Below, one piece after another: positions 14,106-61,900 of a stretch of 64,000 nt of DNA (the first letter of the stretch is position 1; every line of letters starts with the position of its first letter). Location: the NCBI GenBank assembly GCA_036873755.1, contig JAVTVY010025112.1:39182-103181 (forward strand). The letters run 5' to 3'. Below the pieces are notes generated by a model. It ran no database searches. It saw nothing but the letters and a program-made list of their open reading frames with translations, and was not told the DNA's origin. A program made the position numbers and the translations under genes. Origin of the DNA: Hanleya hanleyi (lineage: Eukaryota > Mollusca > Polyplacophora > Lepidopleurida > Hanleyidae).

Positions 14106-14893
14106 TAGTCGATATCCCGATGTCTGATAGTTGAATATATAGCTACGGTGGCTTGTTAGGGCCATGTATTGATCTTATATAGCACCATAGAATATCCAAT
14201 ATTGTATCAGAATGTACTAGTCGATATTCCGATGTCTGATAGTTGAATATATAGCTACGGTGGCTTGTTAGGGCCATGTATTGATCTTATATAGCACCAT
14301 AGAATATCCAATATTGTATCAGAATGTACTAGTCGATATCCCGATGTCTGATAGTTGAATATATAGCTACGGCGGCTTGTTAGGGCTATGCATTGATCTT
14401 ATATAGCACCATAGAATATCCACTATTGTATCAGAATGTACTAGTCGATATCCCGATGTCTGATAGTTGAATATATAGTTACGGTGACTCGTTAGGGCCA
14501 TGCATTGATCTTATATAGCACCATAGAATATCCACTATTGTATCAGAATGTACTAGTCGATATCCCGATGTCTGATAGTTGAATATATAGCTACGGTGGC
14601 TTGTTAGGGCCATGCATTGATCTTATATAGCACCATAGAATATCCACTATTGTATCAGAATGTACTAGTCGATATCCCGATGTCTGATAGTTGAATATAT
14701 AGTTACGGTGACTCGTTAGGGCCATGCATTGATCTTATATAGCACCATAGAATATCCACTATTGTATCAGAATGTACTAGTCGATATCCCGATGTCTGAT
14801 AGTTGAATATATAGTTACGGTGACTCGTTAGGGCTATGCATTGATCTTATATAGCACCATAGAATATCCAATATTGTATCAGAATGTACTAGT
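14106..14893. repeat. 112-bp satellite array, right part (about 7 copies)
   Basis: Same unit as the left array and in the same orientation, resuming at TAGTCGATATCCCGATG and ending at ...GTACTAGTCGTT. The phase across the insertion indicates one array split by the recombinase element. Confidence 0.95.
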
Positions 14894-14944
14894 CGTTCAG
14901 ACAAATATTACTGTAGTATATAGCCTACATTCTTTCCTCTTTTA

Positions 14945-39058: not shown

Positions 39059-39819
39059 CTGAAACAAATTATCAGAGTGCGTATTAAATGAATTGATATA
39101 TCAATCTCTTCCCGACATTATTATTCATATCACCACTACCACATTGTGTTTGGTCAAAGAATATGAGAAGTTTTATGAGGGTACTAAATACTAGTTTGAT
39201 TATTCGACTGATTAGATCAATGATGTGTTTAGATCTAGAAAACTTCTGTTTACAGAGTTGCCTGAATTCTTTTTTAAAATATTTATTTAAAATTGAACAA
39301 CATCAGGATATGGGTATTCAACAGTATATGTTGCGCACCAATTTTGGTATTTGTTTTCGGATTCACTTCAAATTGGTTTCTGTATCCTAGGTTACTTTCT
39401 TCAAAGCTCGTTCTTAAGTAATCGTTTTAACATTGGTTTGAATCTCACATATCTGTGCAGTACATGTAGCTAAGTCAGGCATAAGTAGTATATAAAACTG
39501 AAATTCCCTATTATTTATGCAAATTTGTGGCGGTCACGTGGCGGCTCTCGTCCAATCAGAAGCGAGTATTTCAAATTGACCAAAAAACTACCTCCAGCAC
39601 AGGAGAGTTCCAATTTTTCCAGGTCAAAAATAGTTCCATGTATTCATCCGCGGTGATGCGGTCTGGCAGCAATTTTGGCGGTGATGCGGTCGCGGAAAAA
39701 AGCTTCCGCGAGAAAAAGTAGTCCCTAGATAAAATGGTCCGATTGGGTCGAGTGAGGTATCCATGTGAAGCATTCATGAAGGGGCATCTAATGGACTGGG
39801 TGTGGGGTTGAAATATCGG

Positions 39820-40080
39820 CCTTCTGCGCATGCGCGGTGGCCGAAGGGTATGAAAATAGCCTTTTTGGAGCTAGGGAGCCCCTAATGGTCCAATGGGGTC
39901 GAGTGAGGTATCAATGTGAAGCATTCATGAAGGGGCATCTAATGGCCTGGGTGTGGGGTTGACATATCGGCATTCTGCGCATGCGCGGTGGCCCAAGGGT
40001 ATGGAAATAGACGTTTTGGGAGCTAGGGGAGCCACTAATGGGCCGATGGAGTTCTATGAGGTATCCATGTGAAGCCTAGA
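39820..40080. repeat. Outer repeats of the left arm with NRF1-type palindrome, about 150 bp period
   Basis: Two near-copies share CCAATGGGGTCGAGTGAGGT, GAAGCATTCATGAAGGGGCA and CTGCGCATGCGCGGTGGCC. The mirror block is at about 53870-54070. Confidence 0.7.
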
Positions 40081-40369
40081 TGAAGGAGTATCTAATGGGC
40101 CGGGTGGGTGCATGTAAAATTTTTCCTGAAAAAAAAAAACGAAAACGGACTTTATCGAAAAATCCGGGAAAATGCCTATATGGGGTATGGGGGATATATA
40201 GGTCGCCGGGCTTAACGGGGTTTGCCTATCAATAGAGTTATCTGCCCCTAGTTCCAGGGTGGGTGTATGTAAAATTTTTCCTGAAAAAATACGGAACACG
40301 GACTTTATCCTAAATTACGTGAAAATGCCTATATGGGGTATGGAAGGTATAGGACCATCCTGGGAAACC

Positions 40370-40870
40370 TACTTCTCAACATTTGCGGTATAGGTTGTGG
40401 GGTCTCGTTTTCTTAGTCTCGTCAAGACAAACATCATAGGAAGTGTCCCGGAGCGAATCGGTGAAATTTTTGAAAAAGTACGATATAGCCTCATATAGTC
40501 CCATACTGGGGTATAGGACCGATGTTTGTCCCCCTGGGAAACGTACTTCTATACATTTGCGGTAGGGTTGTGGGGTCTCGTTTTACTCGTCTCGTCATTT
40601 AGAACATGATAGGAAGTGTCCCCGTGCGAATCGGTGAAATCTTTGAAAAAGTACGATATAGCCCCATATAGACATATATATATAAATATATATTCCCATA
40701 CTGGAATATAGGTTCAATGTTTGTCCCCCTGGGAAATCTACTTCTATACATTTGCGGTAGGGTTGTGGGGTCTCGTTTTTCACGTCTCGTCATTTAGAAC
40801 ATGATAGGAAGTGTTGCGGAGCGAATCGGTGAAATTTTTGAAAAAAGTCACCAAGGCCTGGGTAGGCCCA
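40370..40870. repeat. About 180-bp repeats of the left arm, three copies
   Basis: Shared words GTTGTGGGGTCTCGTTTT, AACATGATAGGAAGTGT and GAATCGGTGAAATTTTTGAA. The mirror block is at about 53130-53600. Short open frames here are repeat shadows. Confidence 0.8.
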
Positions 40871-41369
40871 TAGGCCTATACTGCATGGCTATGGGTGTAT
40901 AGGGCCATACGGGGTGGACATGTTGGAGTCTAGGTCAGTCACTGGTGGTCCAATGGGGTCGAGTGAGGTCTTATTTTGAAGCTCTCGTGAAGGAGCATCC
41001 CACTGGGCTAATGGTTCGTCCGTGTTCAATAGTCTGCGCATGCGCAGCCTAGCCCGTAGTAGAGAAAACAGGCATTTTCGGGGTATGTGGGTGTGTGTTT
41101 GGGGTAGAGATGGACTATTCACGGTCCGAATGGGTCGTAGAAGGTGTCAAAGTGAAGCTTGTGTGGGTTAGAGTCAGGATGGCGTGTTTTTAAGTGCAAG
41201 TCGCGTCAATCTGTGCATGCGCAGCCTGGCCGTAGTAGAGAAAACAGGCATTTTTGGGGTATGTGGGTGTGTGTTTGGGGTAGAGATGGACTATTCACGG
41301 TCCGAATGCGTCCTGGAAGGTGTCATTTTGTAGCTCTCGGGGTGTAGACCCCGATTTGGGGCTGTTCAC

Positions 41370-41800
41370 AGCATCTGTGACGTCATTGGTGACGTCATCA
41401 GTACGAGTAGTAGCGAAAGTGTGCATTTTGGGGCAGTACAGGAAGGTATTTGGGGTAGGGATGCTTCATCCTCAGTCCGAATGCGTCGTGTGGGGTGTCA
41501 TCTTGTAGTTTTCGGCGTGCAGACCTCGATTTGAGGGCTGTCCACAGCATCTGTGACGTCATTTGTGACGTCATCAGTAGGAGTTGTGGTGAAAGTGAGC
41601 ATTTTGGGGCAGTGAAGGATGGTATTTGGTGTAGAGATGGACCATCCTTGGTCCCAATGCGTCATGGGCGGTGTCATGTTGTAGCTCTCGGGGTGTAGAC
41701 CCCAATTTGAGGGATAGCCACAGCATCTGTGACGTCATTGGTGACGTCATCAGTACGAGTAGTAGCGAAAGTGGGCATTGAAGGTTGTTACTTGGTGTAG
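41370..41800. promoter_or_regulatory. 176-bp repeats with paired CRE octamers, left arm outer block (3 units)
   Basis: Each unit holds two TGACGTCA words 13 bp apart (CTGTGACGTCATTGGTGACG...), followed by GTACGAGTAGTAGCGAAAGT. Units begin near 41375, 41551 and 41727. TGACGTCA is the CREB/ATF consensus; activity is inferred. Confidence 0.75.
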
Positions 41801-42407
41801 ACATGGACCATCCGCTGTGCGAAAGCGTCGTGTGAGGTGTCATCTTGTAGCAACGCCCAGCAACGCCATTCTGAATGCTTCAACGCCCTGGTGAAATAGC
41901 TCAGAAGTTTTGATATTCCATGGAATTGCCACTAATTCTTCGAAATGCAGTGACGCCCGTCAACGCCAGTCGTTACACCTTAACACTCTAACATAACGCC
42001 ATGATATAGACCGGAGAGAGAACAACAACAGCAACAACAACAACAAGGATGACACATGAGAGAACAACAACAACAAGAAGTTTTTTCGTATAGTTTATTC
42101 TCCCCAATGTTACATCATACCCACGCTGGGGGAGCCGCGTTGGGTATAATTACAATTCAAGAAGATTCTTGTCCAATCAGATGCCACCATTTGTATCTGT
42201 CATATTCGTTCCTGTCCGTTAGATGTATTCTCGGCTACTCTTGTCCAATCAGAAGTCGCCATTTCAGAAAGTTCCATCTTCGGCCATGTTCGCTCTGAAC
42301 CGTTTGTTCTAATCGTCATCGGGCAGGCCAGGATACCGTTGAGGCCACATATACTCAGATAGTTGTTTGTGCATTCTGAGTATCTATCAGTGCATGGGTG
42401 AATACTT

Positions 42408-43331
42408 TCATCCGATGGGGATGGTGGTCAGTTTAACCACGAAGAACGTAAAATTGGTCACCCTCTCCACTTGCCATTTTGTGTTTTGTCGTTGTTGTCG
42501 TACCCATTCCAAACTATCCACGCTGTCCAGTTCCTTCAGCATCGTCTCCAGTGACGCACGATGGATAATGGTGAAAGGCTGGTCAAACACCCGGATATTA
42601 TTGCTGGGATAAAAGTAACGGAGCTGGTCTGTCTCTTTATGGCGAAGAATGTATCCAAAAGTGAGATTTAACTTGAAGGTTGTATCTTGGTCGTTGAAGA
42701 TGGCTTCCACGTAGCTACGTAGACGGATGTTTTCTTCCAACGGGAAATTATATAAGTCCAATATCGGGCGATGCCGATGAAAACAGTGTCGGATCATGTA
42801 CCAATGGCGTCGATACATCTCACGCACTGGATGATCTTCGGGTAAGAGATCACTGGGAACATCCACCGCATCTTCCAGAAAAGGTTCGATGTTGTCAGGC
42901 GTATGACTCGAAACCGTAACGGTGGAGTCCGGCTGGAAATCCAGGCTCTTCTGAACTGTGGGTACAGGCGGGCTCTCCGTCATCGCATCACCCGTGGCGT
43001 TCGTCTCCCCGGGCTTATCTTCACTGGGTCTGACCTTTTGCGGCTCCTCTTCAGTAGGAAGTTGTCGCCCAAATCGTAGAGACAGGACATGAATCAAACG
43101 CTGATGCCGTCTTAACTGACTGCGTCGTTTGAAGAGTTGACCACATTCATAACATTGTTCCTTCGCACCCTTGTGGAGTGAGCGTTCGTGGCGCAGTAAA
43201 GCATCTTCCCGATTAAATGACCGTGCGCAGGTTATACAAGAATATAGTGTACCAGTGTGGATGGAGGACTCGTGTCGTCGCAAGTCTTCTGGGCGAGTAA
43301 ACAGCTTCTGACAAGTTGTGCAAGAGAACAT
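42408..43331 (-). CDS. Left-arm long C2H2 zinc-finger protein (307 aa)
   Basis: The start chosen is ATG at 43331 (MFSCTTCQ), because the initiator A lies at about 43355, leaving a leader of about 24 nt; Met codons further upstream would not be transcribed. Three or four C2H2 fingers fill residues 1-90 (CTTC..FTRPEDLRRHESSIH, CITCARSFNREDALLRHERS, CYECGQLFKRRSQLRRHQRL). A Pro/Glu/Asp-rich linker follows. The C-terminal 150 residues form an unnamed domain with MIRHCFHRHRPILDLYNF, FKLNLTFGYILRHKETDQLR and EWVRQQRQNTKWQVERVTN. Transcription runs outward from the palindrome centre. It differs from its mirror copy at seven residues. Its TATA box is altered to TGTAAAA. Confidence 0.8.
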   Translation of the reverse strand: MFSCTTCQKLFTRPEDLRRHESSIHTGTLYSCITCARSFNREDALLRHERSLHKGAKEQCYECGQLFKRRSQLRRHQRLIHVLSLRFGRQLPTEEEPQKVRPSEDKPGETNATGDAMTESPPVPTVQKSLDFQPDSTVTVSSHTPDNIEPFLEDAVDVPSDLLPEDHPVREMYRRHWYMIRHCFHRHRPILDLYNFPLEENIRLRSYVEAIFNDQDTTFKLNLTFGYILRHKETDQLRYFYPSNNIRVFDQPFTIIHRASLETMLKELDSVDSLEWVRQQRQNTKWQVERVTNFTFFVVKLTTIPIG

Positions 43332-43606
43332 ATCGGCTGTGGATCTGGAAATCATGAACACCGTAAAAAAATTGCCACTTTTACACGTTTTTCAGTGACC
43401 TTCGTGTCTTTTCGGCAACCTCCGTGTCTCTTCGGTCATCTCCGTATCTTTTCGGTGACGTCCGTGACTCTTCGGAAGTTAGAGGGGAGGTGACCGGCCT
43501 ATCGACCAATCAGAAGCCATCATTTCAGAAAGTTCAATCTTCGTTCAGTGTAACCTAAACGTCTTCGGGCAATCCATGATACTGAAGCTCGAAGCTCTTA
43601 CTTCTC

Positions 43607-43897
43607 TCATTCAACACTGAGATCAATCTCCATCGGCTCTTCAATCCGCGGCGAATCGACCTCCATGGGTTCTTCTATTCTCAGATCCATTCCGATAGAA
43701 ACTGAAATATCTGGTCTCGAGAGTGGCGAGCGTGACCCGTGTATAACATTTCGGTGACGACTCAATTGACTGGGATGCTTAAAGGCTATATCACAATCCG
43801 CACATGTATGCATGGGTACTTCGTGGCATGCACGTGTGTGACAACGCAAACTGTCCAAGCGATGAAGGCGCTTCGAGCAAGTTGTGCAAGAGAACAT
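43607..43897 (-). CDS. Left-arm short C2H2 zinc-finger protein (96 aa)
   Basis: It starts MFSCTTCSKRLHRLDSLRCH and has two C2H2 fingers (CTTC..H.RACH and CADCDIAFKHPSQLSRHRNV...H), then an acidic tail with a repeated RIEEPMEVDSP/RIEEPMEID. The first residues and the leader (TTTCCAGATCCACAGCCGAT) match the long gene, so the two are paralogues. TATAAGA lies about 28 bp before the initiator. Its mirror copy differs at two residues. Confidence 0.75.
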   Translation of the reverse strand: MFSCTTCSKRLHRLDSLRCHTRACHEVPMHTCADCDIAFKHPSQLSRHRNVIHGSRSPLSRPDISVSIGMDLRIEEPMEVDSPRIEEPMEIDLSVE

Positions 43898-44399
43898 ATC
43901 GGCTGTGGATCTGGAAATGATGAATGCCGTAAAACTTTCGGCTCTTATAGGCCAACATAGGAGTACCCGGATGTTCTACAGTCAGGGATGTACAAGAACC
44001 CGGATGTACCCGGATGTAAAAGTGCCCGGATGTTCACGAATGTACTACCATCCCGGACTTCTATCAGGCCCAGGTCCAGAAGCTCTCACGTCCTGCACCG
44101 AACTACTGCTCGGTAACCCGTGAGTGAATTAACCACGGTCGCATGCTGTAAAATGGGTCTCCGTCATGGCTCTGCAACCATAGGAATGGGCTTGTGAGAT
44201 CCAGAGGGACGTGTTAGACCATGTTACACATGCGCGTCTACACGTAGATCTACGTATGTAGTCCGTGATAAGTACTATTCTGATTGGTTAGTCCAAAAAG
44301 AGAGCAACAACAACAACAACAGCAAAGATTACAGGTCAATCCTTTTTATTAGCCCCTCCATCACAGCACATCCACGCTGGGGGAATCGCTATGGGTGTG

Positions 44400-44850
44400 T
44401 GGGATGTCCGCGTCATCTGTGACGTCATCGGTGACGTCATCGGTACGAGTAGTAGCGAAAGTGGACATTTTCCGGCAGTACATGAAGGTATTTGGGATCG
44501 AGATGGGCTATTCACGGTTCGAATGCGTCCTGGAAGGTGTCATCTTGTAGTTCTCGGGGTGTACATTCCGATTTGAGGGATGTCCGCGTCATCTGTGACG
44601 TCATAGGTGACGTCATCGGTACGAGTAGTAGCGAAAGTGGACATTTTCGGGCAGTACATGAAGGTATTTGGGATCGAGATGGGCTATTCACGGTTCGAAT
44701 GCGTCCTCGAAGGTGTCATCTTGTAGTTCTCGGGGTGTACATTCCGATTTGAGGAATGTTCGCGTCATCTGTGACGTCATCGGTGACGTCATCGGTACGA
44801 GTAGTAGCGAAAGTGGCCATTTTCGGGCAGTACATGAAGGTATTTGGGGT
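44400..44850. promoter_or_regulatory. 176-bp CRE-pair repeats, left arm inner block (3 units)
   Basis: Units at about 44412, 44588 and 44764 each carry CTGTGACGTCAT plus GTGACGTCATCGGTACGAG. Open frames of the type MGSRWAIHGSNAS read through them only because 176-bp units happen to lack stops. Confidence 0.8.
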
Positions 44851-44869
44851 CGAGATGGTGCGGTAGGAA

Positions 44870-45020
44870 TATCATTCTGCGCATGCGCAGACGCAATCCG
44901 GAGCTCTCGTCCAATGAGAAGCGAGTATTTCAAATCCGTCACAGAGCTCTCAGCCAATCAGAAGCGAGTATTTTGACCCGGTGCATTGTGGGCCATATCC
45001 AAGATGGCGGCACGTATGTT
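44870..45020. promoter_or_regulatory. Left inner cluster: NRF1, two CCAAT, two YY1-type sites
   Basis: TTCTGCGCATGCGCAGACG (NRF1 palindrome) is followed by TCGTCCAATGAGAAGCGAG and CAGCCAATCAGAAGCGAG (CCAAT boxes), then two CAAGATGGCGGCAC words (YY1 consensus, minus strand). The same set is mirrored at 45700-45860. Factor names rest on consensus words only. Confidence 0.7.
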
Positions 45021-45129
45021 CAAGATGGCGGCACATCCGGTGTCGAAAACTGGCCATCCCGTCGGGATGTGGTCACCTAGTGTCGAAAACTGGTCCTTGT
45101 ATGGGTCCTGCTAGACGTTTTGACGCCAT

Positions 45130-45600
45130 GATATAGACCGGAGAGAGAGAGAAAACAACAACAACATAGACCGGAGAGAGAGAGAGAAAACAACAACAAC
45201 AAGGATGACACATGAGGGAACAACAACAACAACAAGTCTTGGAGCTCCGGAGCTCATGGAACTCGGAGCTCCGGAGCTCCGACGCCACCACCGGGCGTTG
45301 ATGGGCGTTGCTACAAGAGAACTCGGAGCTCCGGAGCTCCGGAGCTCCGGAGGTCACTTCCACTTCTGTTCACGTGACCGGAACTGACCTTTGACCCCGG
45401 CGCGCGCGGTGTAAAGGTTTCCACCTCCGGAGCTACGGAGCTTCGAGTTCTCTTGTAGCAACGCCCGTCAACGCCCGGTGGTGGAGCTCCGGAGCTCCAA
45501 GACTTGTTGTTGTTGTTGTTCCCTCATGTGTCATCCTTGTTGTTGTTGTTTTCTCTCTCTCCGGTCTATGTTGTTGTTGTTTTCTCTCTCTCTCCGGTCT
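45130..45600. repeat. Palindrome centre: AAC/GTT runs, GGAGCTCC words and unpaired spacer
   Basis: Mirror pairs of CAACAACAACAAC/GTTGTTGTTGTTG and GGTCTAT/ATAGACC flank stacked GGAGCTCC palindromes (45240-45350 and 45425-45500). The unpaired middle, about 45354-45424, holds GTTCACGTGACC (E-box palindrome) and a CGCGCGCGG run. This centre could extrude as a cruciform. Confidence 0.8.
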
Positions 45601-45699
45601 ATATCATGGCGTCAAAACGTCTAGCAGGACCCATGCAAGGACCAGTTTTCGACACTAGGTGACCACATCCCGACGGAATGGCCAGTTTTCGACACCGGA

Positions 45700-45865
45700 T
45701 GTGCCGCCATCTTGAACATACGTGCCGCCATCTTGGATATGGCCCATAATGCACCGGGTCAAAATACTCGCTTCTGATTGGCTGAGAGCTCTGTGACGAT
45801 TTGAAATACTCGCTTCTGATTGGACGAGAGCTCCGCATTGCGTCTGCGCATGCGCAGAATGATAT
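45700..45865. promoter_or_regulatory. Right inner cluster: YY1-type, CCAAT, NRF1 sites
   Basis: Mirror of 44870-45020: two GTGCCGCCATCTTG words, two CTTCTGATTGG words and TCTGCGCATGCGCAGAATG. Both orientations face outward toward the CRE repeats and genes. Confidence 0.7.
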
Positions 45866-45879
45866 TCCTACCGCACCAT

Positions 45880-46380
45880 CTCGACCCCAAATACCTTCAT
45901 GTACTGCCCGAAAATGGCCACTTTCGCTACTACTCGTACCGATGACGTCACCGATGACGTCACAGATGACGCGAACATCCCTCAAATCGGAATGTACACC
46001 CCGAGAACTACAAGATGACACCTTCGAGGACGCATTCGAACCGTGAATAGCCCATCTCGATCCCAAATACCTTCATGTACTGCCCGAAAATGTCCACTTT
46101 CGCTACTACTCGTACCGATGACGTCACCGATGACGTCACAGATGACGCGAACATCCCTCAAATCGGAATGTACACCCCGAGAACTACAAGATGACACCTT
46201 CCAGGACGCATTCGAACCGTGAATAGCCCATCTCGATCCCAAATACCTTCATGTACTGCCCGGAAATGTCCACTTTCGCTACTACTCGTACCGATGACGT
46301 CACCGATGACGTCACAGATGACGCGGACATCCCACACACCCATAGCGATTCCCCCAGCGTGGATGTGCTGTGATGGAGGG
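45880..46380. promoter_or_regulatory. 176-bp CRE-pair repeats, right arm inner block (3 units) ending at a poly(A) signal
   Basis: Three units with GATGACGTCACCGATGACGT. Immediately after, CCCCCAGCGTGG precedes AATAAA at 46384 and a GTTGTTGTTGTTG stretch, the layout of a transcript end. This suggests a non-coding transcript across the repeats, which is inference. Confidence 0.65.
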
Positions 46381-46383
46381 GCT

Positions 46384-46430
46384 AATAAAAAGGATTGACC
46401 TGTAATCTTTGCTGTTGTTGTTGTTGTTGC
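46384..46430 (+). terminator. Poly(A) signal with GT-rich downstream run
   Basis: AATAAA at 46384-46389 is followed within 25-40 bp by TTTGCTGTTGTTGTTG. The same pattern follows the long zinc-finger gene at 48668. Confidence 0.6.
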
Positions 46431-46719
46431 TCTCTTTTTGGACTAACCAATCAGAATAGTACTTATCACGGACTACATACGTAGAGCTACGTGTAGACGC
46501 GCATGTGTAACATGGTCTAACACGTCCCTCTGGATCTCACAAGCCCATTCCTATGGTTGCAGAGCCATGACGGAGACCCATCCCTATGCGACTCGCATTT
46601 TACAGCATGCGACCGTGGTTAATTCACTCACGGGTTACCGAGCAGTAGTTCGGTGCAGGACATGAGAGCTTCTGGACCTGGGCCTGATAGAAGTCCGGGA
46701 TGGTAGTACATTCGTGAAC

Positions 46720-46850
46720 ATCCGGGCACTTTTACATCCGGGACTTTTACATCCGGGTACATCCGGGTTCTTGTACATCCCTGACTGTAGAACATCCGGG
46801 TACTCCTATGTTGGCCTATAAGAGCCGAAAGTTTTACGGCATTCATCATT
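46720..46850 (+). promoter_or_regulatory. Promoter of the right-arm short zinc-finger gene
   Basis: Five or six ACATCCGGG words (46725-46800; ETS-like core on the other strand) precede TATAAGA at 46817-46823. The initiator-like TTCATCATT has its A at 46845, 28 bp downstream. The leader TTTCCAGATCCACAGCCGAT then leads to ATG at 46869. Confidence 0.7.
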
Positions 46851-46868
46851 TCCAGATCCACAGCCGAT

Positions 46869-47159
46869 ATGTTCTCTTGCACAACTTGCTCGAAGCGCTT
46901 TCATCGCTTGGACAGTTTGCGTTGTCACACACGTGCATGCCACGAAGTACCCATGCATACATGTGCGGATTGTGATATAGCCTTTAAGCATCCCAGTCAA
47001 TTGAGTCGTCACCGAAATGTTATACACGGATCACGCTCGCCACTCTCGAGACCAGATATTTCAGTTTCTATCGGAATGCATCTGAGAATAGAAGAACCCA
47101 TGGAGGTCGATTCGCCGCGGATTGAAGAGCCGATGGAGATTGATCTCAGTGTTGAATGA
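46869..47159 (+). CDS. Right-arm short C2H2 zinc-finger protein (96 aa)
   Basis: Mirror copy of 43607-43897. It reads MFSCTTCSKRFHRLDSLRCH ... with two fingers and the acidic RIEEPMEVDSP tail. Changes against the left copy are Leu to Phe in finger 1 and Asp to His in the linker (SIGMH). Both lie away from the zinc ligands. Confidence 0.75.
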   Translation: MFSCTTCSKRFHRLDSLRCHTRACHEVPMHTCADCDIAFKHPSQLSRHRNVIHGSRSPLSRPDISVSIGMHLRIEEPMEVDSPRIEEPMEIDLSVE

Positions 47160-47284
47160 GAGAAGTAAGAGCTTCGAGCTTCAGTATCATGGATTGCCCG
47201 AAGACGTTTAGGTTACACTGAACGAAGATTGAACTTTCTGAAATGATGGCTTCTGATTGGTCGATAGGCCGGTCACCTCCCCTC

Positions 47285-47415
47285 TAACTTCCGAAGAGTC
47301 ACGGACGTCACCGAAAAGATACGGAGATGACCGAAGAGACACGGAGGTTGCCGAAAAGACACGAAGGTCACTGAAAAACGTATAAAAGTGGCAATTTTTT
47401 TTACGGTGTTCATGA
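47285..47415 (+). promoter_or_regulatory. Promoter of the right-arm long zinc-finger gene
   Basis: Four to five diverged 20-bp units of the type CCGAAGAGACACGGAGGT end at TATAAAA (47381-47387). The initiator-like GTTCATGATTTCC has its A at 47412, 31 bp from TATA. An inverted CCAAT (ATTGG) lies at about 47251. In the left arm the TATA word reads TGTAAAA. Confidence 0.75.
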
Positions 47416-47435
47416 TTTCCAGATCCACAGCCGAT

Positions 47436-48359
47436 ATGTTCTCTTGCACAACTTGCCAGAAGCTGTTTACTCGCCCAGAAGACTTGCGACGACACGAGTC
47501 CTCCATCCACACTGGTACACTATATTCTTGTATAACCTGCGCACGGTCATTTAATCGGGAAGATGCTTTACTGCGCCACGAACGCTCACTCCACAAGGGT
47601 GCGAAGGAACAATGTTATGAATGTGGTCAACTCTTCAAACGACGCAGTCAGTTAAGACGGCATCAGCGTTTGATTCATGTCCCGTCTCTACGATTTGGGC
47701 GACAACTTCCTACTGAAGAGGAGCCGCAAAAGGTCAGACCCAGTGAAGATAAGCCCGGGGAGACGAACGCCACGGGTGATGCGATGACGGAGAGCCCGCC
47801 TGTACCCACAGTTCAGAAGAGCCTGGATTTCCAGCCGGACTCCACCGTTACGGTTTCGAGTCATACGCCTGACAACATCGAACCTTTTCTGGAAGATGCG
47901 GTGGATGTTCCCAGCGATCTCTTACCCGAAGATCATCCAGTGCGTGAGATGTATCGACACCATTGGTACATGATCCGACACTGTTTTCATCGGCATCGCC
48001 CGATATTGGACTTATATAATTTCTGGTTGGAAGAAAACATCCGTCTACGTAGCTACGTGGAAGCCATCTTCAACGACCAAGATACAGCCTTCAAGTTAAA
48101 TCTCACATTTGGATACATTCTTCGCCATAAAGAGACAGACCAGCTCCGTTACTTTTATCCCAGCAATAATACCCGGGTGTTTGACCAGCCTTTCACCATT
48201 ATCTATCGTGCGTCACTGGAGACGATGCTGAAGGAACTGGACAGCGTGGATAGTTTGGAATGGGTACGACAACAACGACAAAACACAAAATGGCAAGTGG
48301 AGAGGGTGACCAATGTTACGTTCTTCGTGGTTAAACTGACCACCATCCCCATCGGATGA
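47436..48359 (+). CDS. Right-arm long C2H2 zinc-finger protein (307 aa)
   Basis: Mirror copy of the left long gene, full length and uninterrupted. The start chosen is ATG at 47436, 24 nt after the predicted initiator; an upstream GTG or ATG (47412) would fall at or before the transcript start. Fingers occupy residues 1-90, the acidic/Pro linker about 90-155, and the C-terminal domain (YRHHWYMIRHCFHRHRPILD ... TTIPIG) the rest. Differences from the left copy are L/P, R/H, P/W, T/A, I/T, H/Y and F/V, against a single silent change that I found (Cys TGT/TGC). Nucleic-acid binding is inferred from the fingers. Confidence 0.8.
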   Translation: MFSCTTCQKLFTRPEDLRRHESSIHTGTLYSCITCARSFNREDALLRHERSLHKGAKEQCYECGQLFKRRSQLRRHQRLIHVPSLRFGRQLPTEEEPQKVRPSEDKPGETNATGDAMTESPPVPTVQKSLDFQPDSTVTVSSHTPDNIEPFLEDAVDVPSDLLPEDHPVREMYRHHWYMIRHCFHRHRPILDLYNFWLEENIRLRSYVEAIFNDQDTAFKLNLTFGYILRHKETDQLRYFYPSNNTRVFDQPFTIIYRASLETMLKELDSVDSLEWVRQQRQNTKWQVERVTNVTFFVVKLTTIPIG

Positions 48360-48667
48360 AAGTATTCACCCATGCACTGATAGATACTCAGAATGCACAA
48401 ACAACTATCTGAGTATATGTGGCCTCAACGGTATCCTGGCCTGCCCGATGACGATTAGAACAAACGGTTCAGAGCGAACATGGCCGAAGATGGAACTTTC
48501 TGAAATGGCGACTTCTGATTGGACAAGAGTAGCCGAGAATACATCTAACGGACAGGAACGAATATGACAGATACAAATGGTGGCATCTGATTGGACAAGA
48601 ATCTTCTTGAATTGTAATTATACCCAACACGGCTCCCCCAGCGTGGGTATGATGTAACATTGGGGAG

Positions 48668-48720
48668 AATAAACTATATGAAAAAACGTCTTGTTGTTGT
48701 TGTTCTCTCATGTGTCATCC
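48668..48720 (+). terminator. Poly(A) signal of the right-arm long zinc-finger gene
   Basis: AATAAA at 48668-48673 lies about 310 bp after the stop, preceded by CCCCCAGCGTGGG and followed by CTTGTTGTTGTTGTTC. It is the same module as at 46384. Confidence 0.65.
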
Positions 48721-49160
48721 TTGTTGTTGTTGTTGCTGTTGTTGTTCTCTCTCCGGTCTATATCATTACAAGCGTCTAGTCCGTCATTCATAATCCAGCC
48801 GTCGTCCATTAGAGAATATCCGCGTCCATAATCCAAAGACCTATTCCATTTCCATATAACAGTATTAGCACCAAATTCAAAAAGACAAAAGTATACATAA
48901 ACATAGGCTTGTTTCCTGCAAGAGAGAAGCGGTCAACAGTTTTCAATGATGCCGGCAAGACATCATGATGTTCCAAAATATCAAATCCGTATCGCTGATC
49001 AGTATTCTTAATCCATAATATTCGTTATAGAGTCGTCATCTAAAAATGATGTACCTCAGTCACGCTTTGATTGTGACTGTTCATATGAGTACCATGAGGA
49101 TCTTGAAGTACATGGGTTCATACGGCCCCTAGCCCCGGGTTAAGCGGAATTAGACACAAG

Positions 49161-49470
49161 TTACGAAACGTAGCGCCATAGATCTTGCACGCTACGTTCG
49201 TATTTTGCTATCAGCATGCGATATGTATCGCCAAATTTGAGAAACTTTGAGTGGAGGCGCTTGGTGGAATAGCCCTGTTTTATAAGTTTCTGCAACAATG
49301 TTTTGTGACGTTGATTAAAATCATCACATTTAACACAGGATCTAGCAAATGCTACTAAGCGAGATATGTATACGCCATATGCAGGTCCCACTGGAATATT
49401 ACTGTCCAGAAAGGGATAGTTTACGATGTCGAAATTGTAATCATCTCTTTTGTCATAAAGTCGACGAGAG
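49161..49470 (-). pseudogene. PLE protein, C-terminal part in a shifted frame
   Basis: LYDKRDDYNFDIVNYPF ... GPAYGVYISRLVAFARSCVK ... LQKLIKQGYSTKRLHSKFLK is the standard end of PLE reverse transcriptases, ending at a stop near 49161. It is one frame off from the catalytic core, so this copy is dead as it stands (one stop, one frameshift). Confidence 0.8.
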
Positions 49471-50089
49471 AGAATGCCCGCTTCATTTTATAGAGGTAGA
49501 GATCTAAATAAGATGTGCCTGTAGGGCTATCTGTAGTTTCCTTCAAATCCAGTGAAGGTGGATATATATCCTTCACTGCGTCATTTATATAGCGATTATC
49601 CACAGCGAGAAGATCGTCTATATAGCGTTTGGTGAATGAGAAGGAACGGGCTTTGAGTGGATCGGTTTTTGAAAGCGCCAGCATATAGTCATATTCATAA
49701 GAGAACAGATACAGGTCAGCCAACAGGGGTGCACAATTAGTACCCATTGGAATACCTATATGCTGCTGATATATTGTGTTGCCAAATTTCACATAGATAT
49801 TTTTAATGAGAAATTCAAGCAACTCTATAAACAAAGAAACATCCCATGAATGATATCTCTTGTATGTAGTAGAGCTAAAGAATGCTTTATGGCTTCCGAC
49901 ATTAATATATCTACGATCAGTTTTCTTGAACACAGATACTATTAATGAACTTATACGGTCAATAAGGTCCTGATGAGGGATTGTAGTATAGAGAGTCGAG
50001 AAATCCCATTTGGATACATGTCTGTACGGTATGTGACCTTTAGCATCAAGTTCTTCCGTAAGACATTTTGAGTTTTCCAATATCCACAT
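49421..50089 (-). CDS. PLE protein, second part: RT catalytic core (222 aa)
   Basis: Same frame as the preceding part after the TAA. It carries SKWDFSTLYTTIPHQDL (first catalytic Asp), GIPMGTNCAPLLADLYLFSY and KRYIDDLLAVDN (catalytic Asp pair), then TSYLDLYLYKMKR. After about 49480 the frame is wrong: the expected SRRLYDKRDDYNFDIVNYPF lies in the next frame, so one base has been lost or gained there. Confidence 0.85.
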   Translation of the reverse strand: MWILENSKCLTEELDAKGHIPYRHVSKWDFSTLYTTIPHQDLIDRISSLIVSVFKKTDRRYINVGSHKAFFSSTTYKRYHSWDVSLFIELLEFLIKNIYVKFGNTIYQQHIGIPMGTNCAPLLADLYLFSYEYDYMLALSKTDPLKARSFSFTKRYIDDLLAVDNRYINDAVKDIYPPSLDLKETTDSPTGTSYLDLYLYKMKRAFSLVDFMTKEMITISTS

Positions 50090-50095
50090 ACATTC

Positions 50096-51958
50096 TTAGT
50101 TCTTAGAAATAGTGGCGCAATACCTTTCCCAAAATGCTTTTACCTCCTGAAGGGCCCTCGTCAATAGGGTTGAAAGAAGCTTGGTGGTGCAGCTTCTAGA
50201 ACCAGCTATGAATCTAGCTTTGTATGGTGATTTATGCATTTTGGGAGTCCAGTATATTTTTGGTATGTCGCTATGATTGGTTGGAAGACAAATACCTCTT
50301 TCCCTGAGAAACTTTTTGTGATTGTTAAATAAATCTTCCAGAGTAAATGCACTTTGGGAGTAAGTAGATGTATTTGATAAAGATATGTCTACACTCAATT
50401 CTTTAACCAGCACCTGGTAATAGTAATATTTACATATGAATATTATATTATTCGGAGCTTTGTCTGCTGGGACTATGACGAATTTACTCTGGAGATTTGC
50501 TAGAACTTCTTGCGAATTGAGGTTTCTCAGTACTTGTTTTGCTTGGGGAAGAGTACTTCTGTCAATATGGCGGATTGTTTCAACGACCTTGCTCTTGGTG
50601 AGGTCCAGCCAATCAGCGAGTACTGTAGGTTCAACTTTTTCTCGCTTAGACCAATCAATAACGTACTGTTCTAATGCAGTCAGGACTATCTTCTGGTCCG
50701 CCTTCAGATTTATTCTTCTTGGCTCTCTATATTTAGGTCCTTTCATCAGGAGTAATTTCAGATCCTTATCACTCACCACATCAAGGTCACCAGTCACAAT
50801 ATGTTTGCATGGTGTATAGATAAAATTCGACAATTCACAATCACAACTATAGCCTCCTGACGTGTATAAGTTCCAGTCAAACTCCTTGACAGCATTGGAG
50901 TAATTGAATATTTTGGTGGCTATAGATTTAGTATACTTATATGAAATGCAAGGAGGTTCTGTGAACTTAAAATAGTTTGGTACAGCGTTGCGTACCTCTG
51001 GATCATTCAGGATTCGAGGTAAATTAATGATGTCCAGTCCTTTATCTAAGTAGTTGAGTTTCAAGAAAAGCCGATCTTGAGATGTTTCGATTATGTTCAC
51101 TGGACGATACAACCGAAAATACGCTATATCTTGACATACTTTACTGATTTTGGATGGTATTATATTTCCTGAAGACGCAGATTGCTGTATATCTCTGGCT
51201 ATTTGATTTAAAGCTCTCAGAGGTAACGCATACAGAACTGTACGTAAGCTATGTATACTATTGGGTGCGTTAGTTAAACCCATTAAGTAATTTAAAGTGA
51301 TATGATCGTGAATCATCGAACTATTAAACTTTCGCCAACCATGGCTGCGTTGTCTCCGTTGATGGGGTTTAAATAGTTGGGTAATGTTGGAACGGCGGTT
51401 TGTAGCATTGCCGAACCCACTGACATTATCATTTAAACCAAACGGAAACACCGACCCAAGTTCTAGCATCCAGAATAATTCCCGCTCTCGGATTTTTCTC
51501 TCAAATCCAAAGGGGGAATCCTTAGTAGATGGATAGACGACGTCTATGATCTGAATACTAAAGTTATCCCAGCCATGGTCGGGTCCAGAAAAATGCCTAC
51601 CTATAAGCAATTGCTTTTTCCTAACGGATTTTCTGTGACCGTTCACCCTAAGATGGAGTCTTTGGGTGGTCTTGCCAACATACTGTTGACCACACTTCTT
51701 ACAGGAAACTAAGTAAATACAGTTTGTAGTAGAACAACTAAGATCAACATACGAGTTAACAGAATATGAGTTACCAGTTAACGCGGAACTAAATGAAGCT
51801 GAAGTATTAAAGAGTGGACACGTGAGACATCCACGGTGTCCACACTTAGAAATTTTGAAATTATTACATGTAGAATTCGGTGCTAAACAATCATCAAGCG
51901 CAATATTGCAAGGTTTGATGTCGTGGCCTTGCTTTGCTGTCAGAAATATATCTGTCAT
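50096..51958 (-). CDS. PLE protein, first part: GIY-YIG nuclease plus RT N-terminal region (620 aa, then stop)
   Basis: Residues 39-47 hold CGHRGCLTC, a zinc-type cluster. The GIY-YIG core follows: IYLVSCKKCGQQYVGKT at about 81-97, then LRVNGHR and an acidic RERELFWM near 160. A long linker contains CDCELSNFIYTPCKHI. RT motifs start with FVIVPADKAPNNIIFICK and PKIYWTPKMHKSPYKARFI. The frame is open upstream of the listed Met to the element border (...VRNALRPFSIQM), so the true start may be lost. A single TAA at 50098-50096 interrupts it; the same frame resumes as ECMWILENSK. Confidence 0.85.
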   Translation of the reverse strand: MTDIFLTAKQGHDIKPCNIALDDCLAPNSTCNNFKISKCGHRGCLTCPLFNTSASFSSALTGNSYSVNSYVDLSCSTTNCIYLVSCKKCGQQYVGKTTQRLHLRVNGHRKSVRKKQLLIGRHFSGPDHGWDNFSIQIIDVVYPSTKDSPFGFERKIRERELFWMLELGSVFPFGLNDNVSGFGNATNRRSNITQLFKPHQRRQRSHGWRKFNSSMIHDHITLNYLMGLTNAPNSIHSLRTVLYALPLRALNQIARDIQQSASSGNIIPSKISKVCQDIAYFRLYRPVNIIETSQDRLFLKLNYLDKGLDIINLPRILNDPEVRNAVPNYFKFTEPPCISYKYTKSIATKIFNYSNAVKEFDWNLYTSGGYSCDCELSNFIYTPCKHIVTGDLDVVSDKDLKLLLMKGPKYREPRRINLKADQKIVLTALEQYVIDWSKREKVEPTVLADWLDLTKSKVVETIRHIDRSTLPQAKQVLRNLNSQEVLANLQSKFVIVPADKAPNNIIFICKYYYYQVLVKELSVDISLSNTSTYSQSAFTLEDLFNNHKKFLRERGICLPTNHSDIPKIYWTPKMHKSPYKARFIAGSRSCTTKLLSTLLTRALQEVKAFWERYCATISKN

Positions 51959-52239
51959 TTGGATTGAAAAAGGTCTTAGTGCATTTCGAACTATTAGAGA
52001 CTCGGCCGAGAACTGTATACTATTGGACGGGCGTCACTGCATTTCGAAGAATTAGTGACAATTCCATGGAATATCAGAGCTTCTGAGCTATTTCACCAGG
52101 GCGTTGAAGCATTCAGAATGGCGTTGGTGGGCGTTGCTACAAGATGACACCTCACACGACGCATTCGCACCGCGGATGGTCCATGTCTACACCAAGTAAC
52201 AACCTTCAATGCTAAAAAACGCCCACTTTCGCTACTACT

Positions 52240-52660
52240 CGTACTGATGACGTCACCAATGACGTCACAGATGCTGTGGCTATCCCTCAAATTGGGGTCT
52301 ACACCCCGAGAGCTACAACATGACACCGCCCATGACGCATTGGGACCAAGGATGGTCCATCTCTACACCAAATACCATCCTTCACTGCCCCAAAATGCTC
52401 ACTTTCACTACTACTCCTACTGATGACGTCACCAATCACGTCACAGATGCTGTGGACAGCCCTCAAATCGAGGTCTGCACGCCGAAAACTACAAGATGAC
52501 ACCCCACACGACGCATTCGGACTGAGGATGAAGCATCCCTACCCCAAATACCTTCCTGTACTGCCCCAAAATGCACACTTTCGCTACTACTCGTACTGAT
52601 GACGTCACCAATGACGTCACAGATGCTGTGAACAGCCCCAAATCGGGGTCTACACCCCGA
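52240..52660. promoter_or_regulatory. 176-bp CRE-pair repeats, right arm outer block (3 units)
   Basis: Mirror of 41370-41800: GATGACGTCACCAATGACGT at about 52246 and 52601; the middle unit has one octamer changed (CAATCACGTCACAG). NRF1-type ACTGCGCATGCGCAG follows at about 52771 and 52950. Confidence 0.75.
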
Positions 52661-53129
52661 GAGCTACAAGATGACACCTTCCAGGACGCATTCGAACCGT
52701 GAATAGTCCATCTCGACCCCAAATACCTTCCTTCACTGCCCCAAAATGGCCACTTTACTTACTACAACCAACTGCGCATGCGCAGATTAACGCGACATGC
52801 ATTCAAAAACACACCATTCTGACTCTACCCCACACAAGCTTCACTTTGACACCTCACACGACCCATTCGAACCGTGATTAACTCATCTCTAACCCAAACA
52901 CACCCCTACATAGCACCCAAAATGCCTGGTTTCTATACTACGGCCAGACTGCGCATGCGCAGACTATTGAACACGGACGAACCATTAGTGTAGTCAAGTG
53001 CTCCTCCACGAGAGCTTCAAAATAAGACCTCACTCGACCCCATTGGACCACCATGGACTCCAACATGTCCACCCCGTATGGGCCTATACGCCCATAGCCA
53101 TGCAGTATAGGCCTATGGGCCTACCCAGG

Positions 53130-53640
53130 CCTCGGTGACTTTTTTCAAAAATTTCACCGATTCGCTCCGCAACACTTCCTATCGTGTTCTAAATGACGAG
53201 ACGAGTAAAACGAGACCCCACAACCCTACCGCAAATGTATAGAAGTACGTTTCCCAGGGGGATAAACATTGAACCTATACCCCAGTATGGGAATATATAT
53301 TTATATATATATATGTCTATATGGGGCTATATCGTACTTTTTCAAAAATTTCACCGATTCGTGCCGGGACACTTCCTATCATGTTCTTGACGAGACGAGA
53401 AAACGAGACCCCACAATCCTACCGCAAATGTATAGAAGTACGTTTCCCAGGGGGACAAACATTGATCCTATACCCCAGTATGGGACTATATGGGGCTCGG
53501 TGACTTTTTTCAAAAATTTCACCGTTTCGCTCCGGGACACTTCTTATCATGTTTGTCTTGACGAGACTAAGAAAACGCGAAGTAGGTTTCCCAGGATGGT
53601 CCTATACCTCCCATACCCCATATAGGCATTTTCCCGTAAT
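53130..53640. repeat. About 180-bp repeats of the right arm, three copies
   Basis: Mirror of 40370-40870, with AAAATTTCACCGATTCG, ACACTTCCTATCATGTT and AAACGAGACCCCACAA. A TATATATATA run lies between units at about 53290. Confidence 0.8.
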
Positions 53641-54329
53641 TTAGGATAAAGTCCGTATTCCGTATTTTTTCAGGAAAATTTTTACATACACCCACCCTGG
53701 AACTAGGGGAAGATAACTCTGTTGATAGACAAGCCCCGTTAAGCCCGGCGACCTATATACCCCTCATACCCCATATAGGCATTTTTCCAGGTTTTTCGAT
53801 AAAGTCCGTGTTCCGTATTTTTTTTTTCAGGAAAAATTTTACATGCAGCCACCCAGCCATCAAATACCCCTTCACCTAGGCTTCACGTTGATACCTCACT
53901 CGACCCCATTCGACCATTAGGGGTTCCCCTAGCTCCAAAACGGCTATTTCCATACCCTTGGGCTACCGCGCATGCGCAGAATGCCGATATTTCAATCCCA
54001 CACCCAGCCCATTAGATACCCCTTCACCTAAGCTTCACTTTGATACCTCACTCGACCCAATCGGACCATGCAGCGTATTTCCAGTCTAGGGACTACTTTT
54101 TCTTCGCGGAAGCTTTTTCCCGAGACCGCATCACCGCCAAAATTGCTGCCAGACCGCATCACCGCGGATGAATACTCTCCTGTGCTGGAGGTAGCTTTTT
54201 GGTCAATTTGAAATACTCGCTTCTGATTGGACGAGAGCCGCCACGTGACCGCCACAAATTTGCATAAATAATAGGGAATTTGCGGTTTACCTACTACTCA
54301 CGCACAGCGGCGTAAGGTGTTAGCCTGAT

Positions 54330-54790
54330 AATAACGCCTCTCGATGGTTTCGCGATATTCTCTCGACGCTTTCTCGATCTAAATTTCTCGACATTCTCTC
54401 GATCGAAAAAAAACGATTCATTCTCGATGGGTCAAAAAGAACGAATAAATTACAAGCGTCTAGTCCGTCATTCATAATCCAGCCGTCGTCCATTAGAGAA
54501 TATCCGCGTCCATAATCCAAAGACCTATTCCGTTTTCCACATAACAGTATTAGCACCAAATTCAAAAAGACAATCATAGTATACATAAACATAGGCTTGT
54601 TTCCTGCAAGAGAGAAGCGGTCAACAGTTTTCAATGATGCCGGCAAGACATCATGATGTTCCAAAAATATCAAATCCGTATCGCTGATCAGTATTCTTAA
54701 TCCATAATATTCGTTATAGTTTTTTCCCCATTTTATTTTCTCGACATTCTCTCGATGACTTCCCGATATGATCGATATTTCTTTGAGAAA
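54330..54790 (+). repeat. TCTCGA-rich stretch split by the PLE fragment
   Basis: TCTCGA(C/T) words recur on both sides of the fragment (CTCGACATTCTCTCGAT at about 54387 and again at about 54740). The motif spacing is irregular, recalling the TTACGA array at 21 kb. Confidence 0.5.
54451..54719 (-). mobile_element. 5'-truncated PLE 3' end
   Basis: 269 bp nearly identical to 48767-49030, starting at the same base (TACAAGCGTCTAGTCC) and stopping at TTCGTTATAG. A fixed 3' end with a variable 5' end fits target-primed reverse transcription. It interrupts a TCTCGA-rich stretch. Confidence 0.85.
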
Positions 54791-58900: not shown

Positions 58901-61900
58901 ATAGTTTTCAATATCCCATTGTTATGTATATAATAAATGCCTCGCTCAGGTGCTAACCATCACAAAGATATTTTGGTTGTTGAATGTTTCTAGATATGCC
59001 GTCAGAATATTGGCCTGTGGGGTCATATGACTTCTTGTCAGTACATCGGCATCTTTTCCCACTACCTTAATATGTTGCGTTCAATCCCAAACTACTTTCA
59101 TTGAAGACAGAAAAGCGATCATCTGTTTTCAGTCATGCCTGAAAGACAGCAAAATGTTCCTAATATCGTCAATTCTGTATCGCATAGCAGAAATCTTATT
59201 AAGTATTCTTGAATATACTATATACCAGTTACTCCTCACATGTGAAAGTTCATGGCATCACCAGGAAAACAGTGTACTGCAGTATTTCTTTAAGAGCATC
59301 ATGTTCATACGGTTCTTAGCCCGATGGGGAAATTAAACACGACTCACGAAACGTAGATATCCCGAAGGCGCTGGGTATACCAGCCTTCTCCAGCTAGTTT
59401 CTGCAAAACTGTTTTATCCAAATCAAGATGAAGGCTTGGCGTATGTAGGGATTTATATATGTGTTATATACAACTATTCCTATTCATAAGTGAACACATA
59501 TATCCGTACCAAAAGGAACCGACAGATTGCTTTTGATATATGTTACTACCAAACTACTCATAGCATTAATGATGAATTCAAATATACATTGAAACACTAT
59601 GTATTTTGTTCGATGTTTCTAACCTTGTTGCCCAAATGCTCATGTATGTTAATGTTGGTAGTAAAGAACGTATAATATCTCTCTGTGATTGTGACCGAGG
59701 CCATCACAGCTGCAAGTGAACTATACTTTCTTTTCCAGCTTTCTAGGTCTACTTTCTAGGTCTAGCTATAAAGCGTATATTGTTTATAGCAGCCCTTCCA
59801 ATCATATATGATGTACCCGTTTTAGCAAATTTTGTATGAAGGTGCATCTGTTGAATCGCTGTAGGTTGTACTTCACGACTTTGATCGAGTCCCTCTTGTC
59901 ACTGAAGACGGTTTTCATGTAGCCCCTGGATTTTCTTGGTCAGCACAAATAACGGCTACACGAGTAAGTATTGTATTTGTCCAAAACGCCCCAATCGTCG
60001 AACTGTATATTTAGCGATATGGAATTGTACCCGCGTACATTTTGCTGCTATCTGTGGAGGAATCTAGGATGATATCAAAGCGTCAGATCCGACTTTCTGT
60101 AGGTAACCGTCGTCCATAGAAAATATAGAGCCTATCTTGCATATCGCTCCAATACAACAGTTTCCAATGCGGCCTGTGATTAACTGGGAATACCATGATC
60201 TTCCAGATATTTTTAGCTCACCATCACCAGATGGTGGGCTGTTCAAATCACTTTTCGTCCGTGGTCCGTCGTCCGTCCGTCCGTCCAGGCGTCCGTCGTC
60301 CGTCCGTCCGTCGTCAGTCCGTCCATAAACAATTCTTGTTACCGTGATTTCTCAGGAACTACCGGATGGATCTTTCTCAAATTTGGTACACATGTTCCCC
60401 TTGGGGTCTAGTTGTGCAAGATACCTTTTCTGGTCCGATTCGAAAACCCAATATGGCCACCAGGCGACCATCTTGGATTTCCCAATGAAACTTTGTTACC
60501 GCGATTTCTCAGAAACTACTGCATGGATCTTTCTCAAATTTGGTACACAGGTTCCCCTTGTGGTCTGGTTGTGCAAGATACCTTTTCTTGTCCGATTTGA
60601 GAATATCCAATATGGCCACCAGGCGACCATCTTGGATTTCTCCATGAAACTTTGTAATCGTGATTTCTCAGGAACTACTTCACGGATATTTCTCAAATTT
60701 GGTACACAGGTTCCCCTTGGGGTCTAGTTTTGCAAGATACCATTTCTGGTCCGATTCGAAAATCCAATATGGCCACTAGGCGGCCATCTTGAATTTCCTA
60801 ATGAAACATTGTTATCGCGATTTCTCAGGAATTGCCGCATGGATCTTTCTCAAATTTGGTACACATGTTCGCCTTTGCGTCTAGTTGTGCAAAATATCTG
60901 TTCTGGTCCAATTCGAAAATCCAATATGGCCAACAGGCGGCCATGTTGGATTTTTCCATGAAACTTTGTTATCGCGATTTCTCAGGAACTACTGCAGGGA
61001 TCTTCCTCAAATTTGGTACACAGGTTCCTCTTGGGGACTAGTTGTGCAAGATACCTTTTCTGGTCCGATTCGAAAATTCAATATGGCCACCAGGCGACCA
61101 TCTTGGATTTACCCATGAAACTTTGTTATCGTGATTTCTCAGGTACTACTGCATGGATCTTTGTCAAATTTGGTACACAGGTTCCCCTTGATGTCTAGTT
61201 GTGCAAGATACCTTTTCTGGTCCGATTCGAAAATCCAATATGGCCACTAGGCGGCCATCTTGGATTTCCTCATGAAACATTGCTATCGCGATTTCTCAGG
61301 AACTGCTGCATGGATCTTTCTCAAATTTGGTACACAGGTTCGCCTTTGCGTCTAATGGGGCAAGATACCTTTTCTGGTCCGATTTGTAAATCCAATAAGG
61401 CCAACAGGCGGCCATGTTGGATTTCCTCATCAAACTTTGTTATCGCGATTTCTCAGGAACTACTGCATGGATCTTCCTCAAATTTGGTACACAGGTTCCT
61501 CTTGGGGTCTAGTTGTGCAAGATACCTTTTCTAGTCCGATTCGAAAATCCAATATGGCCACCAGGCGACCATTTTGGATTTCCCCATGAAACTTTGTTTT
61601 TGTGATTTCTCAGGAACTACTCCATGGATCTTTCTCAAATTTGGTACACAGGTTCCTCTTGTGGTCTAGTTGTGCAAGATATCTTTTCTGGTCCGATTCG
61701 AAAATTCAATATGGCCACCAGGCGACCATCTTGGATTTCCCCTTGAAACTTTGTTATCGCGATTTCTTAGAAACTACTGCATGGATCTTTCTCAAATTTG
61801 GTACACAGGTTCTCGGGGTCTAGTTGTGCAAGAAGCCTTTTCTGTTTCGATTCGAAAATGCGATATGGCTACCAGGCGGCCATCTTGGATTTCCCCATGA

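Follow-up and report, generated by a model that had tools for sequence, protein, structure and literature searches.

Polintons, also known as Mavericks, encode a protein-primed DNA polymerase, PolB, and a DDE integrase (PMC6431247). In vertebrate Mavericks, as described in PMC8097293, both gene modules face the centre of the element (the modules of one toad's Maverick point apart), the ends carry the motif 5'-(AGT)2//(ACT)2-3', the terminal repeats measure 46 to 1,447 bp, and insertion leaves 6-bp target site duplications, which are typical of rve integrases (PMC12220804). We studied a palindrome in a 64,000-nucleotide stretch of the genome of the mollusc Hanleya hanleyi (GenBank assembly GCA_036873755.1, contig JAVTVY010025112.1, positions 39,182 to 103,181 of the forward strand; the whole stretch is hereafter called the window). 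Like Polintons, which are adintovirus-like elements, the palindrome family has terminal inverted repeats that run from AGTAGT to ACTACT and 6-bp duplications of the target, and it encodes a homologue of the zinc-finger-bearing N terminus of PolB. Unlike in Polintons, its listed open reading frames (ORFs) include no recognisable gene for a PolB core, integrase, ATPase, or capsid, the inverted repeats of about 5.8 kb make up nearly the whole element, and the genes are duplicated and point outward. We consider it probable (roughly 0.7) that the palindrome is a non-autonomous, snapback-type Polinton/Maverick satellite that would be copied by PolB and inserted by an rve integrase, both supplied in trans. 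The original prediction, made from the letters of the window, had called the gene content unlike any nameable transposon class; this part did not hold, because the (AGT)2//(ACT)2 ends, the 6-bp duplications, and the homology to the PolB N terminus link the element to Polintons/Mavericks.

Self-BLAST of the window recovered the palindrome at 39484-54298, far above chance. It bore out the predicted mirror order of the blocks, and the bounds first proposed (39490-54285) lay within 15 bp of the ends found. The inner arms (42001-45255 inverted versus 48766-45484) were 97.9% identical over 3,288 columns. Farther out, 40406-41961 matched 53577-52026 inverted at 92.4% and 39885-40375 matched 54069-53579 inverted at 90.3%, whereas the outermost tips (39484-39608 inverted versus 54298-54174) were 95.2% identical over 125 bp. 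ORFs were listed at a minimum of 120 amino acids (aa) across the window and, from stop to stop, at a minimum of 70 aa in 39479-48766. The listing agreed with the prediction of two outward zinc-finger genes per arm, one long and one short, so that all four genes are transcribed outward. The parts of the palindrome are as follows.

39484..45344, no strand: left arm (self-comparison)
45345..45424, no strand: unpaired centre of 80 bp (self-comparison)
45425..54298, no strand: right arm, broken by a Penelope-like insertion (self-comparison)
39484..39608, plus strand: left tip, starting AGTAGTATATAAAACTGAAATTCCC..., the outermost terminal inverted repeat (inverted match; the AGTAGTA start is also seen in other copies read)
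54174..54298, minus strand: right tip, reading inward AGTAGTAGGTAAACCGCAAATTCCC... (tip comparison)
42408..43361, minus strand: long gene of the left arm, with 3 C2H2 fingers and a 140- to 160-aa domain homologous to the Polinton PolB N-terminal region (ORF, Pfam, alignments)
47388..48359, plus strand: long gene of the right arm (protein 97.8% identical to that of the left arm)
43607..43897, minus strand: short gene of the left arm, encoding about 96 aa with two C2H2-like fingers recognised by eye (position taken as the mirror image of the right-arm gene)
46869..47159, plus strand: short gene of the right arm (ORF listing)
41274..41779, no strand: 176-bp tandem repeats with paired TGACGTCA sites, outer left arm (repeat scan, site search)
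44401..44858, no strand: 176-bp tandem repeats with paired TGACGTCA sites, inner left arm (repeat scan, site search)
45876..46333, no strand: 176-bp tandem repeats with paired TGACGTCA sites, inner right arm (repeat scan, site search)
52136..52765, no strand: 176-bp tandem repeats with TGACGTCA sites, outer right arm (repeat scan, site search)

The centre is thus unpaired, as predicted, but longer than the 70 bp or so first given. Likewise, the predicted divergence of about 1% between the two long genes stood, with 11 differences in 933 compared bases rather than 9 in 924. The long protein, of about 317 aa, consists of three C2H2 fingers, a linker, and a C-terminal domain (C-domain), and the short and long genes begin with a common stretch of about 65 bp at 92% identity (self-comparison). 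Most TGACGTCA sites of the window (23 of 27) fall inside the palindrome, and CCAATCAG has 13 occurrences in the palindrome, not counting the insertion, and none in the rest of the window. From this distribution, we considered a possible regulatory role of the two sites in the element.

To place the palindrome in its genome, we searched the 2.48-Gb assembly (52,793 contigs) with the long protein and scored the best 125 of 49,452 first-look candidates. The long gene had at least 125 genomic matches at 91 to 100% identity, of which 116 were free of stop codons and 9 contained one. Every contig with two scored matches (15 out of 15, including that of the window) had them in minus-then-plus order, that is, inverted and outward. 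We also mapped the stretches around nine other contigs piece by piece: C9051 (spanning about 131899-143357), C14388, C21315, and C7982 were mapped from tip to tip, the copy on C44968 stops at the contig end, and C17252 was examined over one half only. A second long gene, about 65 to 70% identical, lies in an arm of C21315, C7982, C4916, and C17252. The arm is therefore no unique locus, and the other palindromes anticipated by the original prediction do occur in the genome. In the viral contigs of IMG/VR, two scans found no relative.

Both ends were read in 12 copies, including that of the window. Ends were located by the AGTAGTA motif, and for C16465, C10796, C9869, and C13662 the ends alone were read and paired by tip search. 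The elements run from AGTAGT to ACTACT; AGTAGTA and a related tip sequence were present at both ends in 11 of the 12 copies, and the right end of C3123 is doubtful. Six-bp duplications directly abut the AGTAGTA ends. They were perfect in seven copies (C9051, C14388, C21315, C7982, C10796, C9869, and C13662) and matched at five of six positions in two more (C16465 and C11054), whereas C4916, C3123, and the window copy had none. The flanks read varied from copy to copy. For C9869, we also found an exact empty site: its flanks joined by one GACGCT equal, at 58 out of 58 bases, a paralogous Penelope copy at positions 54504-54447 of the window. Insertion is thus precise, with a 6-bp duplication and Maverick-type ends. 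The at least 125 matches, together with target duplications at independent loci, upheld the view that the palindrome is a mobile unit rather than a chance host duplication.

The link to PolB comes from the long protein. Among 5.8 billion predicted proteins, relatives of the C-domain numbered one and four at E-value cutoffs of 1 and 0.1, respectively, the one being among the four. Two long metagenome proteins covering 27% of the query were set aside; the one that was read has many fingers. Three contigs (L001 to L003) came from scanning bacterial and archaeal genomes; they belong to the metagenome-assembled genome of a symbiont of the tubeworm Escarpia laminata, and we infer them to be animal Polinton DNA. 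On L001, the C-domain opens a 1409-aa ORF with a DNA_pol_B_2 match (2.9e-9). L001 also carries genes for an ATPase, matched weakly by Adeno_IVa2, and for an integrase with rve and chromo domains, as well as an ORF of capsid-like look by eye that matched no Pfam family. On L002, the fingers, the domain, and an apparent polymerase start share one ORF, in which Pfam detected the fingers alone. The long protein of the window was 35% identical over 161 aa to the 1409-aa ORF of L001 and 35% identical over 144 aa to L002, with additional similarity in the fingers. Judged from these alignments, it is homologous to the zinc-finger-bearing N-terminal part of Polinton PolB but stands alone as a protein of its own. 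Searches of the PDB returned zinc-finger proteins, both by sequence (best 60 of 196 matches) and by fold (best 50 of 491 matches, from a weak model with a mean pLDDT confidence of 64.8).

The long gene has evolved differently over short and long distances. In 21 coding copies (one with a stop codon), the mean synonymous divergence (dS) was 0.045 and the mean nonsynonymous divergence (dN) was 0.027, giving a ratio of 0.6. Six arm pairs together had 14 synonymous and 31 nonsynonymous differences, which is near neutral. Against distant paralogues, dN/dS was 0.34 and 0.21, with 0.14 to 0.26 in the C-domain. Near neutrality after insertion combined with constraint along the lineage is the pattern of a mobile element in which the protein is important for propagation.

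The same genome holds possible sources of the functions in question. We found at least 164 DNA_pol_B_2 matches and 108 Polinton-integrase matches. Several contigs (e.g., C27644 and C13854) carry PolB and integrase genes about 7 to 9 kb apart in convergent orientation, which is the canonical arrangement. C27644 has ACTACT at its right end, and terminal repeats connect this end to the left end region at 87%. On four contigs (C4967, C41214, C28015, and C17501), the PolB matches lie in outward inverted order. Sequence reading showed that C4967:16472-33958 and C41214:88373-105580 are palindromic, each arm measuring about 8.4 kb, with identities of 91 to 93% in the main blocks and 85 to 99% in other blocks. 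They share with the zinc-finger palindromes the palindromic structure, AGTAGTA tips, outward genes, and fingers at the PolB N terminus; unlike them, they carry PolB together with an unnamed ORF of 238 aa in both arms and lack a clean target duplication. In each of the two, one arm has an open PolB frame of 1196 to 1201 aa, and the frame of the opposite arm is shortened or split. A side observation was a large, length-uniform group of Polinton-type integrase ORFs with a 366-aa frame; the group may be a second integrase-bearing family, because most of its contigs, by eye, are not among the PolB matches listed.

We propose the following origin for the satellite. During protein-primed replication, a displaced strand would fold back and be copied, yielding a palindrome that carries the same origin-bearing end twice. 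PolB supplied in trans by the co-resident canonical Polintons and PolB palindromes could then copy the product from both tips, and a Polinton rve integrase, likewise in trans, could insert it. The zinc-finger proteins, kept by selection, would most likely bind element DNA at the tips or tandem repeats and thereby promote or control replication or transcription.

Several observations weigh against this reading. None of the Polinton core genes was recognised in the zinc-finger palindrome, as noted above. Its arm gave no nucleotide match to the end regions of C27644 (two 2-kb stretches) or C13854 (1.5 kb), nor to the PolB palindrome C4967, and the PolB of C4967 matches the window protein in the fingers alone and not in the C-domain. 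In the PolB palindromes, the 6-bp duplication matches at only four of six positions in C41214 and at one of six in register in C4967. The window copy is itself flanked by two different hexamers (GGCATA versus CACGCA). Canonical genes point inward and those of the palindrome outward. Folding back a canonical end would not by itself give the observed order, which requires either an ancestor whose genes already faced outward or a subsequent inversion. As for selection, dN/dS is about 0.6 within the group and 0.53 to 0.96 in other close pairs, meaning that recent copies are nearly unconstrained, and the ratio of 0.21 comes from a copy with a stop codon and a saturated dS (1.7).

A tentative extension, which we regard as possible but doubtful, goes further than the satellite reading. 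Palindromic Polintons would form a self-sustaining class of replicons whose genomes pass from generation to generation as a pair of mirror-image arms. The PolB palindromes would act as replicases, and the zinc-finger palindromes would be satellites that use the PolB N-terminal module, detached from the polymerase, to take over or hold back replication.

Among the alternatives, the one that fares best is an autonomous palindromic replicon, a new virus-like element whose zinc-finger proteins and the host polymerase copy a hairpin genome and whose Polinton ends are borrowed. Conservation of the long gene over deep divergence would fit such a replicon, as would the further related finger genes in the arms of several subfamilies. 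However, we recognised no catalytic domain in the long ORFs. The Pfam scan covered the two long ORFs and those of the inserted retroelement, with shorter ORFs judged by eye. In the long ORFs, it found no DNA_pol_B_2 match, no catalytic domain, and no transposase; no packaging ATPase or capsid ORF was recognised among the long (Pfam) or shorter (by eye) ORFs, and no HUH Rep/NS gene, the mark of a parvovirus-like virus with hairpin ends, was present among the window ORFs examined. The target duplications next to the ends show that copies are integrated. The 6-bp duplications and AGTAGT ends also typify Mavericks that use an integrase, and integrases, absent as rve ORFs among those listed for the window copy, are plentiful elsewhere in the genome. 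We therefore regard autonomous replication as improbable.

Slightly less probable still is a cut-and-paste element of foldback type (MULE/foldback, Galileo/P, or a similar class) that had taken up Polinton sequence. Foldback elements such as Tm1 and Tetris indeed also have giant inverted repeats that consist in part of tandem repeats, but the target duplication here is 6 bp (7 of 12 copies) and the ends carry the Maverick (AGT)2 motif. Foldback elements have other end motifs, other target duplications, and another transposase lineage than Polintons; duplications in the foldback/MULE and similar classes are longer (about 9 bp for Foldback/MULE), and MULEs have their own transposase. No ORF that would make the palindrome an element with its own transposase was recognised.

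An assembly artefact or a local inverted duplication of host DNA is very unlikely, even though the window copy has mismatched tips and flanks. Independent loci carry their own matched target duplications, there is an exact empty site, and the outer arms differ by 2 to 5% within the four copies compared, unlike an assembler fold-back (best-block identity of 96.1% in C9051, 98.1% in C7982, 94.8% in C21315, and 95.5% in C14388). For the family as a whole, dispersed copies with target duplications rule out both host duplication and pure artefact. Least probable of all is a host zinc-finger family recently domesticated from Polinton PolB and spread by segmental duplication, which would account for the conserved ORFs and many copies but not for the precise ends, the copy inside a repeat with a 6-bp duplication, the differing flanks read, or the near-neutral evolution of recent copies.

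The window copy differs from the rest of the family. Its tips are unlike each other, the first 20 or so bases of the right tip being of a different type from those of the left, and so are its flanks; unlike tips also occur in C4916 and C11054. The best outer-arm block is only 90.4% identical between its two arms, and the left arm is more similar to C9051 (93%) than to the right arm of the same copy. The copy thus looks like halves of two element types, brought together either through recombination in the living animal or during assembly, and this would explain the unlike tips, the unlike flanks, and the more divergent outer arms. The original view was borne out in part: the family is one of mobile, virus-like units in inverted-dimer form, but the copy on which the view was based has no target duplication and appears to be recombinant. 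The right arm is 3.3 kb longer than the left because of an insertion; the original prediction mentioned neither this nor the unlike tips and flanks.

48767..52025, minus strand: Penelope-like retroelement inside the right arm, foreign to the palindrome element (self-BLAST, ORFs, Pfam)

Its ORFs comprise a GIY-YIG ORF (50096-51958, N-terminal) and a separate reverse transcriptase frame (49421-50089). At the insertion point, the left arm has about 40 bp with no counterpart in the right arm. An end fragment of the same Penelope family lies at 54447-54720, just outside the right tip. Elsewhere in the window, a tyrosine-recombinase ORF (12534-13574; DUF3504/phage integrase by Pfam), which we take to be Crypton- or DIRS-like, is followed by a further ORF (13571-14032); a 112-bp satellite at 9119-11708 and 14106-14895 flanks the two. 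A 157-bp tandem repeat occupies 60336-62174 (11.7 copies, 87% matches).

In the open-access literature searched, mostly by listing, we found no account of palindromic or snapback Polintons. Outside Polintons, there is a likeness to snapback particles of adeno-associated virus, in which a palindromic genome also carries one end region twice and subgenomes may regulate the parent, as described in PMC8235507. Viral snapback genomes are products of infection, whereas the palindromes appear to be passed on by inheritance as a dispersed family whose own genes are under selection. The palindromic SYREC recombinants of adenovirus 12 are reportedly also snapback or defective DNA-virus genomes. Snapback genomes are thus known as by-products of DNA virus replication; if our reading is true, an inherited, high-copy, selected lineage would show that they can become stable mobile elements, and H. 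hanleyi would harbour a natural satellite system of Polintons. Polinton replication has mostly been inferred from genes, and the palindromes would offer a stand-alone zinc-finger N-terminal module of Polinton PolB on which the role of that module could be tested. The PolB palindromes on C4967 and C41214 deserve a study of their own.

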